Part shown: positions 5,810 to 9,050 of the stretch, piece by piece
Position numbering within the stretch: the stretch's first letter is position 1
Layout of the letters: each line of letters begins with the position of its first letter
Origin: Ensifer adhaerens
Lineage (GTDB): Bacteria; Pseudomonadota; Alphaproteobacteria; Rhizobiales; Rhizobiaceae
Direction: 5' to 3'
Length of the DNA: 64,000 nucleotides
NCBI RefSeq assembly: GCF_001270265.1
Contig: NZ_LGAP01000019.1
Location: forward strand, 1-64,000
Translations under genes and position numbers: made by a program
Notes under the pieces: generated by a model
Database searches by the model: none
What the model was told of the DNA's origin: nothing
The model's input: the letters and a program-made list of their open reading frames with translations, nothing else

Positions 5810-7561
5810 TCAGTTGGTCTGCTTCACGCCGAGAGCAAGCGCGTCGACGAGAACGCGATAGACGTCGCTCTGCTCCATGTAACCCCTGAAGCCTTCGCTC
5901 CCCGGGCCTTCCGACTGCAACACGACGTCATCGACCGTGTGCTGGCCGGTGCTTTCGTCCTTCGGCAGGATGCCGACGCGCAGGACCGCGCCGGGCATGT
6001 CCTTATAGGCTTCGTTGGCGACATACTCGTCCTTCTCGTTCTTCACCGCCGGCTCGAACGGGCCATCCAGCTTGGGGCTGAAGGTTTCGTAGTAGTCGGG
6101 GAAGTTGGAGACGAACATCGCCAGGCGGCGGCTCGCATCGATCTTGTCGGGGTAGCCGTCCTTGTTCTCGTCGGTGTAGTTCGGGAAGCCTGCCGAAGCG
6201 CCTGTTTTGACCTTGTCGCGGCCTTCCTTGCCCTCGACGGTGTCATCGATGATGCCGAGCAGCGAGACGCCATGGGTATGGTCGCCGGTAACGACGACCA
6301 GGGTATCCGGGTTGTTCTTTGCAAACTCGCGGGCAACGCCGACAGCCTGGTCGAACTCGATGGTCTCGACGACCGCGCGTTCCATGTCGAGCGGATGGCT
6401 CATCTTGTCGATCGAAGCGCCCTCAACCATCAGGAAGAAGCCGTCTTCATTCTTCGACAGCCGGTCGAGCGCCGTCTTCGTCATGTCGACCAGACCTGGC
6501 TGGCCCGGAAACTTTTCGGCCGTACCCTTCTTCAGGAATTCGCGATCAAGCGTCACGTCCATGTTGCCCGTGTGGAACAAGCCGAGAAGCTTGCCGTCGG
6601 CAGGCGCATTGGCGAGTTCGGTCTTGTCGGTGGCGAGCGCATAGCCGGCCTCCTGGAACAGCTTGATGTAGTCCTGGTTGTCCTTGCGCTTGGAGCCGGG
6701 CGTCTCCTTGCCAAGGAAATAGGCCGAGCCGCCGCCAAGGATGACCTCCGGCTTGACGTCGTAGATCATGCCGACGATTTCGGCCTTGTCGTTGCGGTTG
6801 CGCGTATGGGAGACGACGGCTGCCGGGGTGGCATCCTCGATTTCCGAGGTGGTGACGAGGCCGATCGACTTCTGCGTCTGGCGGCGCAGCGCCTCCGCGA
6901 TGGTTTCGACGCGCGGATCGTCGAGGCTGTCGGGCGTGCGGTCGCCATAGACGCCGACGGCGTTGATCACGGTCTTGTGGCCGGTCATGTAGGCCGACAT
7001 GGTGTTGGCACTGTCGGTGTCGATCGAATTGGTGGCCGACGTGCCGATGAAGGCCATGCGCTCGAGGTCGTCCATGTTGAGGCGGCCATTGGCCTTACCC
7101 TCGGTCATGCCCTTCGACATGATGCGGGCGGCGGTGCGGTGCGCGACCGAAAGGCCGTCGCCCAAAAGGAAGATCACGTTCTTGACCTTCGGCTGTTCGG
7201 CCGTGGCAAAGACGTCCCAGGTCACGGTCTTCGTCTCTCCGCCGGCCGTCACTTCGACCTTGTAGCTGCCCGGTACGCCGATGATTGCATTGCGCAGCAG
7301 CAGCGCCGAACCGAGTTCCTTGTCTTCCTTGCCCTTTTCCATCGCGACATAGGCGGCTTCGGCACCGAGCGCTGCCTTGTAGTCCTGGCCGTTGACGGTC
7401 ACCTTGATGTCTTCGGCCTTGACCGCACCCTTGAGCTCGACCTTGAAATCGAACGGCGAACCGGCAAGTATCGTCGCGCGATCAATGGGATAGACGTCCG
7501 CGGCCTGGGCGGCGTGGGCCAGAACCGTCGTGGCAAAGAGGGTGGCTAGAAGCGTGCGCAT
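5810..7561 (-). CDS. Alkaline phosphatase (PhoA superfamily), periplasmic
   Basis: This 583-residue protein has a Sec signal peptide (MRTLLATLFATTVLAHAAQA, cleavage before ADV). An N-terminal beta domain (~residues 22-130) precedes the catalytic core. VIFLLGDGLS carries the first metal Asp, DSANTMSAYMTG holds the nucleophile region (ATNSIDTDSANT), VEGASIDKMSH and TGDHTHG hold the remaining metal ligands. It hydrolyses phosphomonoesters in the periplasm to supply phosphate. The start at 7561 is chosen for the signal peptide and AAAGGGA upstream; the in-frame extension to 7657 would bury the signal and run through the Pho box. A Pho box 50 bases upstream indicates PhoB control under phosphate starvation. 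The symbol phoA is withheld because the added N-terminal domain differs from E. coli PhoA. Confidence 0.88.
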   Translation of the reverse strand: MRTLLATLFATTVLAHAAQAADVYPIDRATILAGSPFDFKVELKGAVKAEDIKVTVNGQDYKAALGAEAAYVAMEKGKEDKELGSALLLRNAIIGVPGSYKVEVTAGGETKTVTWDVFATAEQPKVKNVIFLLGDGLSVAHRTAARIMSKGMTEGKANGRLNMDDLERMAFIGTSATNSIDTDSANTMSAYMTGHKTVINAVGVYGDRTPDSLDDPRVETIAEALRRQTQKSIGLVTTSEIEDATPAAVVSHTRNRNDKAEIVGMIYDVKPEVILGGGSAYFLGKETPGSKRKDNQDYIKLFQEAGYALATDKTELANAPADGKLLGLFHTGNMDVTLDREFLKKGTAEKFPGQPGLVDMTKTALDRLSKNEDGFFLMVEGASIDKMSHPLDMERAVVETIEFDQAVGVAREFAKNNPDTLVVVTGDHTHGVSLLGIIDDTVEGKEGRDKVKTGASAGFPNYTDENKDGYPDKIDASRRLAMFVSNFPDYYETFSPKLDGPFEPAVKNEKDEYVANEAYKDMPGAVLRVGILPKDESTGQHTVDDVVLQSEGPGSEGFRGYMEQSDVYRVLVDALALGVKQTN

Positions 7562-7610
7562 GGCAATCGTCCCTTTGAGGTGTCGGATTGCGCGGTCGTA
7601 ACGCCCGGCC

Positions 7611-7628
7611 ATGACAGCGCCATGACAT
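7611..7628 (-). promoter_or_regulatory. Pho box (PhoB operator) of the alkaline phosphatase gene
   Basis: Read on the minus strand the site is ATGTCATGGCGCTGTCAT: two 7-base repeats (6/7 and 7/7 matches to CTGTCAT) with a 4-base spacer, the known PhoB layout. It sits 50 bases upstream of the phosphatase start codon, pointing towards it. Confidence 0.8.
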
Positions 7629-7664
7629 TTGCGATCACGTTTGCGGGCGCCAAGCATCGCACGC

Positions 7665-7692
7665 TTGACTCGCCGATAGAAACAATTATTAG
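7665..7692 (+). promoter_or_regulatory. Candidate housekeeping-type promoter of the asd leader
   Basis: TTGACT at 7665-7670 and TATTAG at 7687-7692 are separated by 16 bases, close to the CTTGAC/CTATAT-like pattern of rhizobial RpoD promoters. Initiation near 7699 would leave a leader of ~250 bases before asd. It lies back to back with the phosphatase Pho box. Confidence 0.45.
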
Positions 7693-7716
7693 GAGCCTCG
7701 GAAAGGAAGGCATTCC

Positions 7717-7836
7717 ATGCTTCGCCGCGAACACAACTTCGCTGACAGCAACGTCCTGGCAGAAATCGCCGGGCAGGATATGCATTTTCCAGCTTCCTTC
7801 AAAACAACGGCCAAAACGACGACGAAAACCGTCTGA
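7717..7836 (+). CDS. Candidate 39-residue Thr/Lys-rich leader peptide upstream of asd
   Basis: This short frame has a strong ribosome site (AAGGAAGG ending ~7 bases before the ATG). It begins MLRREHNFAD and ends FKTTAKTTTKTV, so nine of the last eleven residues before the final Val are six Thr and three Lys. Asd lies on the common path to Lys, Met and Thr, so a leader whose translation senses Thr-tRNA or Lys-tRNA would make sense, as thrL does in enterobacteria. A GC hairpin (7859-7875) follows 22 bases after its stop. The whole idea is inference; the frame could also be a chance product of an AC-rich stretch. Confidence 0.4.
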   Translation: MLRREHNFADSNVLAEIAGQDMHFPASFKTTAKTTTKTV

Positions 7837-7858
7837 CGTCTCTGGCCCTCCGCTCTCT

Positions 7859-7910
7859 CCCCGGTTTGGCCGGGGACAGGAACCCTCGCGGCGGATCGCG
7901 CGGTTTCCCC
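7859..7910 (+). promoter_or_regulatory. Hairpins in the asd leader, possible attenuator
   Basis: CCCCGG (7859-7864) pairs with CCGGGG (7870-7875) across TTTGG. Just downstream a second weaker fold (AACC...GGTT, GCG...CGC, about 7881-7905) is followed by TTTCCCCC. Neither has a long T run, so a classical terminator is not certain. They sit between the mini-ORF and the asd ribosome site. Confidence 0.3.
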
Positions 7911-7950
7911 CTCCACCCGACGAGGAGAGACAGAAAAGAGAGCTTAGATC

Positions 7951-8985
7951 ATGGGTTTCAAGATTGCAGTCGCAGGCGCCACCGGCAATGTCGGCCGGGA
8001 GATGCTGAACATCCTTTCGGAACGCGGCTTTCCCGCCGATGAAGTGGTCGCCCTGGCTTCCGCTCGTTCCCAGGGCACGGAAGTTTCCTTCGGCGACAAG
8101 ACGCTCAAGGTCAAGAACCTCGAAAACTACGATTTCTCCGATACCGATATCTGCCTGATGTCGGCCGGCGGCGCGGTATCGCTGAAGTATTCGCCGAAGA
8201 TCGGCCAGCAGGGTTGCGTCGTCATCGACAACTCCTCGGCCTGGCGCTACGACGCCGAAGTGCCGCTGATCGTGCCGGAAGTGAACCCGGACGCGATCTC
8301 GCTCTTCACCAAGAAGAACATCATCGCCAACCCGAATTGCTCGACCGCTCAGCTCGTCGTCGCGCTGAAGCCGCTGCACGACCACGCCAAGATCAAGCGC
8401 GTCGTGGTTTCGACCTACCAGTCGGTTTCCGGCGCGGGCAAGGACGGCATGGATGAACTCTTCAACCAGACCCGTGCGGTCTTTGTTGCCGACCCGATCG
8501 AATCGAAGAAGTTCACCAAGCGCATCGCCTTCAACGTCATTCCGCACATCGACGTCTTCATGGAAGACGGCTACACCAAGGAAGAGTGGAAGGTTCTGGC
8601 CGAAACCAAGAAGATGCTGGATCCGAAGATCAAGGTGACCTGCACTGCCGTGCGCGTTCCTGTTTTCATCGGCCATTCGGAATCGGTCAACATCGAGTTC
8701 GAAAACGAGATCACCGCTGACGAGGCGCGCGACATCCTGCGCGAAGCACCGGGTTGCCTGGTCGTCGACAAGCACGAGAACGGCGGCTACGTCACGCCTT
8801 ACGAGTGCGCCGGCGAAGACGCGACCTACATCTCGCGCATCCGCGAAGACGCAACCGTCGAAAACGGCCTCAACATCTGGGTCGTTTCCGACAACCTGCG
8901 CAAGGGTGCTGCACTCAACGCGATTCAGATCGCCGAGTTGCTGATCAACCGCGGTCTGATCCGCGCCAAGAAGCAGGCCGCCTGA
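7951..8985 (+). CDS. asd: Aspartate-semialdehyde dehydrogenase
   Basis: This 344-residue cytoplasmic enzyme reduces beta-aspartyl phosphate to aspartate semialdehyde with NADPH, for Lys/DAP, Met and Thr. GATGNVGREM near residue 10 is the NADP-binding turn, NPNCSTAQ holds the catalytic Cys (~130), and RVPVFIGHSE holds the catalytic His (~240). Length is normal for the family. The start follows AAAGAGAG. Its 389-base upstream gap (to the phosphatase start) carries a promoter, a mini-ORF and hairpins, described separately. A terminator follows. Confidence 0.95.
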   Translation: MGFKIAVAGATGNVGREMLNILSERGFPADEVVALASARSQGTEVSFGDKTLKVKNLENYDFSDTDICLMSAGGAVSLKYSPKIGQQGCVVIDNSSAWRYDAEVPLIVPEVNPDAISLFTKKNIIANPNCSTAQLVVALKPLHDHAKIKRVVVSTYQSVSGAGKDGMDELFNQTRAVFVADPIESKKFTKRIAFNVIPHIDVFMEDGYTKEEWKVLAETKKMLDPKIKVTCTAVRVPVFIGHSESVNIEFENEITADEARDILREAPGCLVVDKHENGGYVTPYECAGEDATYISRIREDATVENGLNIWVVSDNLRKGAALNAIQIAELLINRGLIRAKKQAA

Positions 8986-9012: not shown

Positions 9013-9050
9013 AACCCCGCCTGGCCCGTTATCGGCCTGCGGGGTTTCCT
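9013..9050 (+). terminator. Terminator of asd
   Basis: AACCCCGC (9013-9020) pairs with GCGGGGTT (9039-9046), with an inner GGCC/GGCC pairing, followed by TTCCTGTTT. It begins 28 bases after the asd stop. Confidence 0.7.

Follow-up and report, generated by a model that had tools for sequence, protein, structure and literature searches.

The asd locus and its leader frame

In the window, i.e., the whole 64,000-nucleotide stretch of Ensifer adhaerens DNA that was analyzed, a short open reading frame lies between a divergent alkaline phosphatase-like gene and asd (Table 1). The latter was identified by its match to the NCBIfam model PRK14874 (aspartate-semialdehyde dehydrogenase; 525 bits against a cutoff of 223). 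The C-terminal end of the leader frame is FKTTAKTTTKTV, comprising six threonine and three lysine codons. A preliminary description of this DNA had reported a 39-codon frame with a ribosome site and these codon counts, followed by hairpins between the frame and asd; the coordinates and the codon counts were confirmed, the ribosome site is AGGAAGG, and hairpins were found at 7859-7875 and 7879-7908.

The putative alkaline phosphatase-like frame (5810-7657, reverse strand) was named by reading its sequence. In its longest form it starts at 7657, and this start almost touches the asd promoter; a start near 7561 is likelier and would give a signal peptide-like N-terminus (MRTLLATLF...). Directly 3' of asd lies an inverted repeat, AACCCCGC...GCGGGGTTT (9013-9047), which is probably the asd terminator.

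Table 1. Features of the asd leader region (window coordinates).
Feature	Position	Strand	Basis and remarks
Promoter-like element: TTGACT (7665-7670), 16 nt, TATTAG (7687-7692)	7665-7692	+	Sequence and relatives
Shine-Dalgarno-like AGGAAGG of the leader frame	7704-7710	+	Sequence; ahead of the ATG
Leader ORF	7717-7836	+	39 codons and TGA; reads MLRREHNFADSNVLAEIAGQDMHFPASFKTTAKTTTKTV
Putative sensing codons KTTAKTTTKT (codons 29-38)	7801-7830	+	6 Thr, 3 Lys; Thr plus Lys counts across relatives
r1, GGCCA, within the sensing codons	7809-7813	+	Contains the conserved Ala GCC; can pair with 7843-7847
r2, GUCUCUGGCC, one base past the stop codon	7838-7847	+	Partner of r1 or r3; swap tests, pair counts, folds
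Anti-Shine-Dalgarno (anti-SD) arm, GCUCUCUCC	7852-7860	+	Predicted to pair with 7937-7943 (SD) or 7924-7930 (P4)
P3 hairpin, CCCCGG/CCGGGG	7859-7875	+	Incompatible with r2:r3; would fold once r2 is covered
r3, GGCCGGGGAC	7868-7877	+	10 pairs with r2; also the 3' side of P3; weaker on the tree
P5 hairpin, GC-rich, without a U tract	7879-7908	+	Swap test, fold
GGAGAGA, alternative 3' arm for the anti-SD arm (P4)	7924-7930	+	Register ambiguous
AGAGAGC, likely Shine-Dalgarno sequence of asd	7937-7943	+	7 bases before the ATG; complements GCUCUCU 7852-7858
asd, aspartate-semialdehyde dehydrogenase, 344 aa	7951-8985	+	NCBIfam and Pfam profiles

Distribution of the Thr/Lys-rich frame

The regions upstream of asd were collected from 264 loci of relatives. 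No asd start was found at one of these (L243), and the remaining 263 yielded 245 unique regions, 244 of them free of N. The family-level search gave an Asd match in 243 of 247 genomes, and 100 regions were picked by hand among the matches listed. At each locus, frames with a stop 40-200 nt upstream of asd were considered, and the best was scored by the number of Thr and Lys codons among its last 14. At least five such codons were present in 226 of the 245 unique regions and at least seven in 211, while the reverse strand of the same regions never exceeded four. Scores of at least seven occurred in 211 of the 244 regions and in none of 976 dinucleotide shuffles; with a slightly different scoring window the result was 227/262 (duplicates included) against 2/1310 shuffles. 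Among the 190 possible pairs of amino acids, Lys and Thr ranked first for enrichment in the tail (244 regions). The enrichment is not a product of chance.

Carriers include Sinorhizobium, Rhizobium, Agrobacterium, Neorhizobium, Shinella, Ciceribacter, Hoeflea, Martelella, Mesorhizobium and Roseibium, and the order is called Hyphomicrobiales here on the basis of these named genera. In families of the order other than that of the window, 33 of 45 regions had at least five Thr or Lys codons and 30 at least seven, leaving 12 without a Thr/Lys-rich frame. In distant relatives the tail is rearranged and still rich in Thr and Lys (e.g., TTIKTKTTI and KTTTKTTKTTA). What is retained is the codon composition, the frame, a length of about 39 codons and the promoter, while the remainder of the peptide drifts. 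The first description had called for a search for a conserved frame with conserved Thr/Lys codons in otherwise divergent DNA, and the outcome of this check was clearly positive.

At class level, an Asd match was found in 103 of 114 genomes, and loci were drawn from best matches only (L265-L293). After removal of four loci with no asd start found and one from the same order (L265), 24 were left, and a Thr/Lys-rich frame precedes asd in three of these (L271, L272 and L292). In this limited sample the leader is mainly a feature of one order. Asd upstream regions without a Thr/Lys-rich frame (score below 5) made up 19 of the 245 unique regions, among them those of L078 and L090.

The leader was also sought elsewhere in the 7.46 Mb genome. 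A covariance model gave 114 bits at asd and nothing else above 16 (150 of 4321 candidates were scored in a first look); as the model includes the leader of the window itself, only the absence of other matches is informative. A degenerate K-T-T-x-K-T-T pattern had a single match in the genome, at the asd leader.

Coding signal in the leader

For analysis of the frame itself, 173 core leaders were defined by at least five Thr or Lys codons, Val at the end and a stop codon 95-130 nt before asd. Over codons -36 to -14 the frame is open in 172 of the 173, against 104 and 90 for the other two frames. A Shine-Dalgarno-like sequence precedes the chosen start in 161, the start having been chosen partly for possessing one, and length centers on 38-39 codons (111/173). 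Variation by codon position follows no pattern in the N-terminal part (0.613/0.648/0.640), and in the tail it is highest at the third position (0.129/0.240/0.342). Pairwise comparison of tails gave 22901 synonymous and 48583 non-synonymous codon differences. Among 19 closely related Rhizobium leaders forming one clade, the corresponding numbers were 0 and 78, with no sign of synonymous drift; it is the wider comparison that provides the coding signal. All four Thr codons are in use at position -10; at position -9, 69 of the 173 leaders have Thr and 57 have Lys. End-product codons thus stay enriched while the rest of the peptide drifts, as expected of an attenuator.

Two codons are conserved at the level of bases: Ala GCC at -8 (130/173) and Val GTC at -1 (166/173, Val itself being a selection criterion). 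Retention of these particular codons would be expected if both serve RNA pairing. Together with the missing synonymous drift in the close clade, which also suits RNA pairing, this conservation could be taken to indicate a structured non-coding leader, either a riboswitch or a protein-binding RNA, in which the Thr and Lys codons are a by-product of an A-rich motif. Such a leader is very improbable given the near-universal openness of one frame, the rearranged but Thr/Lys-rich tails of distant relatives and the use of all four Thr codons at -10. Furthermore, none of 4227 Rfam models matched the window at its gathering score. Around asd, with E up to 10, there were four Rfam matches, all far below their cutoffs, and the possibility of a known riboswitch before asd was dropped as nothing in Rfam rose above cutoff.

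Translation has been shown for a probable counterpart in a sister species. A short ORF (sORF) of Sinorhizobium meliloti 2011, SEP5, carries six Thr and three Lys codons towards its 3' end and is located in the 5'-UTR of a gene given as ‘aspartate dehydrogenase’, according to the relevant passages of PMC10117765 (2023); its translation was demonstrated there by Ribo-seq and by Western blot of a tagged fusion. This gene is presumably asd; together with the genus and the codon counts, it suggests that SEP5 is the counterpart of the window frame. A translated counterpart likewise argues against a non-coding leader.

A translated frame might alternatively encode a small protein that has a function of its own in trans, with asd a bystander. 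According to PMC10117765, the soluble fraction of S. meliloti contained tagged SEP5, and the species has a leader peptide, peTrpL, that functions in its own right. A protein of this type would be hard to reconcile with N-terminal two thirds that vary freely and without codon-position pattern, and the leader frame matched no Pfam or NCBIfam family above cutoff; this alternative is considered highly improbable. As the loci were collected through asd, the tie of the frame to that gene does not constitute an independent test.

A conserved promoter-like element upstream of the frame

The promoter that the first description had seen upstream of the frame is present as a promoter-like element, the TATTAG of which is 24 nt from the leader ATG. 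A strict sigma-70 consensus scan of 7000-8200 listed no promoter. For promoter and structure work the 173 core leaders were thinned at 90% identity to 89; these had been preselected for a Thr/Lys tail, and the counts hold for such leaders. TTGAC is found 140-200 nt upstream of the leader stop codon in 83 of the 89, compared with 2 of 89 on the reverse complement, and its distance to the leader start is mostly 49-56 nt among the core leaders. The asd transcript is predicted to start near 7699, so that the leader frame would lie almost at the 5' terminus of the mRNA. A short frame and a promoter at a fixed position are thus kept in the 5' leader of a biosynthetic gene, an arrangement shared with known attenuators.

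Predicted competing helices in the leader RNA

The leader RNA contains several elements with alternative partners (Table 1). In the computed fold of the window leader, AGAGAGC before asd is paired with GCUCUCU of the anti-SD arm. In the predicted r2:r3 hairpin, the loop is the pyrimidine strand CUCUCUCCC (7853-7861), which is most of the anti-SD arm. The 89 leaders were divided into type R (ACCGUC before the stop codon; 45, including that of the window), type M (ACGGUC; 33) and 11 others.

Pairing was examined by a swap test, in which partners were exchanged between species and native pairing was compared with swapped pairing. Across all leaders, r2:r3, the anti-SD arm with the region before asd, and r1:r2 each gave 0/5000, against 4770/5000, 3778/5000 and 1238/5000 for the controls (r2 with the region before asd, r2 with the anti-SD arm and r3 with the region before asd, respectively). 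When 21 pairings were assessed in each type separately, r2:r3 gave 0/2000 in R and 5/2000 in M, P4 (the anti-SD arm with the region before asd) gave 20/2000 and 3/2000, and P5 gave 0/2000 in both. The r1:r2 pairing was supported in R only (0/2000, with 411/2000 in M). A few pairings outside the model also had low values, i.e., r2:anti-SD (1/2000), r3:r4 (0/2000) and r1:r3 (45/2000) in R, and r1:anti-SD (14/2000) in M, and the swap test is therefore not perfectly specific. The motif GGCC recurs in the leaders of L018, L044, L088, L203 and others, within the ORF, after the stop codon, in P3 and often in the 3' portion of P5; its self-complementarity makes many pairings possible.

Pairs were also counted in an alignment (A1) of 50 of the 89 leaders, seven of them picked by hand for divergence, which was fitted to no structure. 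For r2:r3, 88.2% of cells were paired, compared with 32-67% when slid, and all five measures lay beyond 500 shuffles. P3 was paired in 89.7% of cells, and P3 and P4 together reached 87.6% (35-63% slid), with two of the five measures within the shuffles (44/500 and 31/500). A separate count gave 91% for P3 and, for P4, 84% against 87% when slid by -2; the register of P4 is ambiguous owing to the low complexity of both arms.

Pair events were then placed on a tree built from the remaining columns of the leader itself. For r2:r3 there were 15 both-side, 74 one-side and 98 breaking events, compared with 12, 62 and 100 when slid by one. Both-side events numbered five for P3 (0-2 slid) and two for P4 (three when slid by -2). 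The tree count is supportive for P3 and weak for r2:r3 and P4. On a MAFFT alignment of the 89 sequences the consensus from RNAalifold was poor, and failure of the P5 part to align is the probable cause. By itself, the folding energy of 7695-7960 does not stand out (z -1.34, with 17 of 200 shuffles folding equally well).

Folding of complete and growing transcripts

At equilibrium, the full-length leaders prefer P3 and the anti-SD pairing, and r2:r3 is dominant in only 9 of 89. Freeing r2 in the equilibrium model raised access to the asd start in 7 of 89 leaders and lowered it in 20. Plain equilibrium folding thus failed as proof of a switch and counts against one. As finished transcripts disfavor r2:r3, any genuine switch would have to be kinetic, unless the model is incomplete.

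In growing (truncated) transcripts, r2:r3 helices of at least five pairs were present in 87% of the 89 leaders when r3 had just been made and in 47% ten bases later. The proportion was 73-74% shortly before the partner of the anti-SD arm, 56% at its appearance and 11% thereafter. Mutually exclusive hairpins had been proposed as a check on the original reading, and the outcome is divided: competing helices are supported by the swaps, the pair counts and the truncated folds, but the equilibrium fold and the tree count speak against them or are weak.

Masking of the asd ribosome site or termination

The position of the strand complementary to the anti-SD arm bears on how the leader would act on asd. 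In type R, the longest complement ends a median of 7 nt before the asd ATG, over the likely Shine-Dalgarno sequence, and GCUCUC and GAGAGC are both present in 36 of 45 leaders. In type M the median is 18 nt, so that the Shine-Dalgarno sequence itself is not covered, and the two motifs co-occur in 1 of 33. By complementarity, the anti-SD strand is able to mask the asd ribosome site in type R but not directly in type M. Control of translation is therefore likelier than termination in the genus, and less clearly so in type M.

The same Thr/Lys leader peptide could instead govern premature termination of transcription, at P5 or through Rho, as in the classic attenuators of the thrL type. P5 is a conserved GC-rich hairpin with strong swap-test values in both types, and in some species (L088 and L120) it is followed by UUUU or UUUUU. 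However, neither hairpin between the frame and asd has a long T run, a terminator scan of 7000-8200 returned none on the forward strand (two on the reverse), and a U run of at least four follows P5 in only 2 of 89 leaders, a rough count in which some of the automatic hairpin ends, including that of the window, are misplaced. The stem and U tract of an intrinsic terminator, which thrL-type attenuators possess, was thus not found between the leader frame and asd. In the inverted repeat downstream of asd, too, the T run is short; such runs may be usual here, and one may suffice.

An antiterminator pairing of r2 with the 3' arm of P5 was hinted at by the truncated folds of three type M leaders (L088, L110 and L203), in which r2 is paired with the 3' part of P5. 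This candidate was rejected, as the swap test showed no native excess (733/2000 in R and 1842/2000 in M). In the truncated transcript of the window P5 is formed in both states, and termination would leave the pairing between the anti-SD arm and the stretch preceding asd without a role. Termination as the output is accordingly considered rather unlikely. The preliminary description noted that the terminator lacks a long T run. As the evidence leans towards a translational output in which the ribosome site of asd would be masked, this lack is probably not a defect.

Proposed mechanism

The comparison of relatives shows the frame, selection of its codons, the position of the promoter and, within the limits given above, competing helices. 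A mechanism is proposed that adds to these ribosome stalling, an order of folding, a translational output and a response to starvation, all of which are inferred. Transcription would begin at the promoter just upstream, giving a short 5' end, and the leader frame would be translated. When Thr and Lys are plentiful, the ribosome would reach the stop codon and cover r2, leaving r3 to fold into P3. In this OFF state the anti-SD arm (7852-7858) would pair with 7937-7943, or with 7924-7930, and asd would be little translated. If Thr or Lys is short, the ribosome would stall in codons 29-38 and leave r2 free to pair with r3 while the RNA is being made; the hairpin loop would then hold the anti-SD arm, and asd would be translated. 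Should no ribosome translate the leader, r1:r2 could form and the OFF fold would remain.

The comparative evidence on frame, codons and helices supports the original reading of a Thr/Lys leader-peptide attenuator before asd. Taking both outputs together, the leader is very probably a genuine Thr/Lys leader-peptide regulator of asd. That it acts in cis as an asd attenuator, reading charged tRNA-Thr and tRNA-Lys through co-transcriptional refolding and with a translational output, is the more specific and still fairly likely interpretation. The odds appear even that, across the Hyphomicrobiales, it is a translational attenuator for two amino acids in which the r2:r3 loop hides the anti-SD strand; in such an attenuator no terminator would be needed.

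Relation to known systems

The first description knew of no such leader for rhizobial asd, but SEP5 is already in print as ‘possibly a leader peptide’ and as ‘conserved only in Sinorhizobium’ (PMC10117765). Since SEP5 has the same codon counts, the idea of a leader peptide is not new and is known from a sister species. The restriction to Sinorhizobium is contradicted by the spread of the frame over the order. The passages on SEP5 in PMC10117765 contain no RNA switch or promoter comparison, both of which are given here. No other description of this sORF was found in searches of the open-access PMC library, and the passages obtained from PMC1273637, PMC4117421, PMC4833913 and PMC2965389 contain no asd leader; in those from PMC4117421, ‘asd’ denotes anti-Shine-Dalgarno. 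The new elements are thus the wide conservation over the order, the conserved promoter and the competing RNA helices.

Three known systems invite comparison. In S. meliloti, the trp attenuator rnTrpL/peTrpL has a leaderless sORF of 14 amino acids for Trp and attenuates transcription, and its RNA and peptide are reported to act in trans (PMC10117765). It shares with the window leader an amino acid-specific leader peptide and the genus; the window leader differs in its 39 codons with a Shine-Dalgarno sequence, in its Thr and Lys codons and in having no visible terminator. The thrL leader of E. coli thrABC senses Thr and Ile and has an intrinsic terminator at its end. The asd leader resembles it in being a short frame with end-product codons and alternative hairpins before a biosynthetic gene, but has Thr and Lys codons, precedes asd and shows no U tract. 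In ermC the leader senses an antibiotic-stalled ribosome. Translation attenuation of this kind is alike in that the position of the ribosome on the leader frame decides whether the downstream ribosome site is masked, although the signal for the asd leader would be the supply of aminoacyl-tRNA.

Asd makes the last common intermediate of lysine, diaminopimelate (for the cell wall), threonine, methionine and isoleucine, and its control therefore sets wall and protein synthesis together. Only about the last dozen codons of the leader are kept, and a comparison based on full-length peptides would therefore overlook it; what had been described as a sORF of a single genus becomes an element of many genera. 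If the proposed mechanism is true, a single leader frame would monitor the two routes that diverge from aspartate semialdehyde, and control of this branch point by the position of a ribosome on a leader would extend across a large order in which plant symbionts and plant pathogens are numerous.
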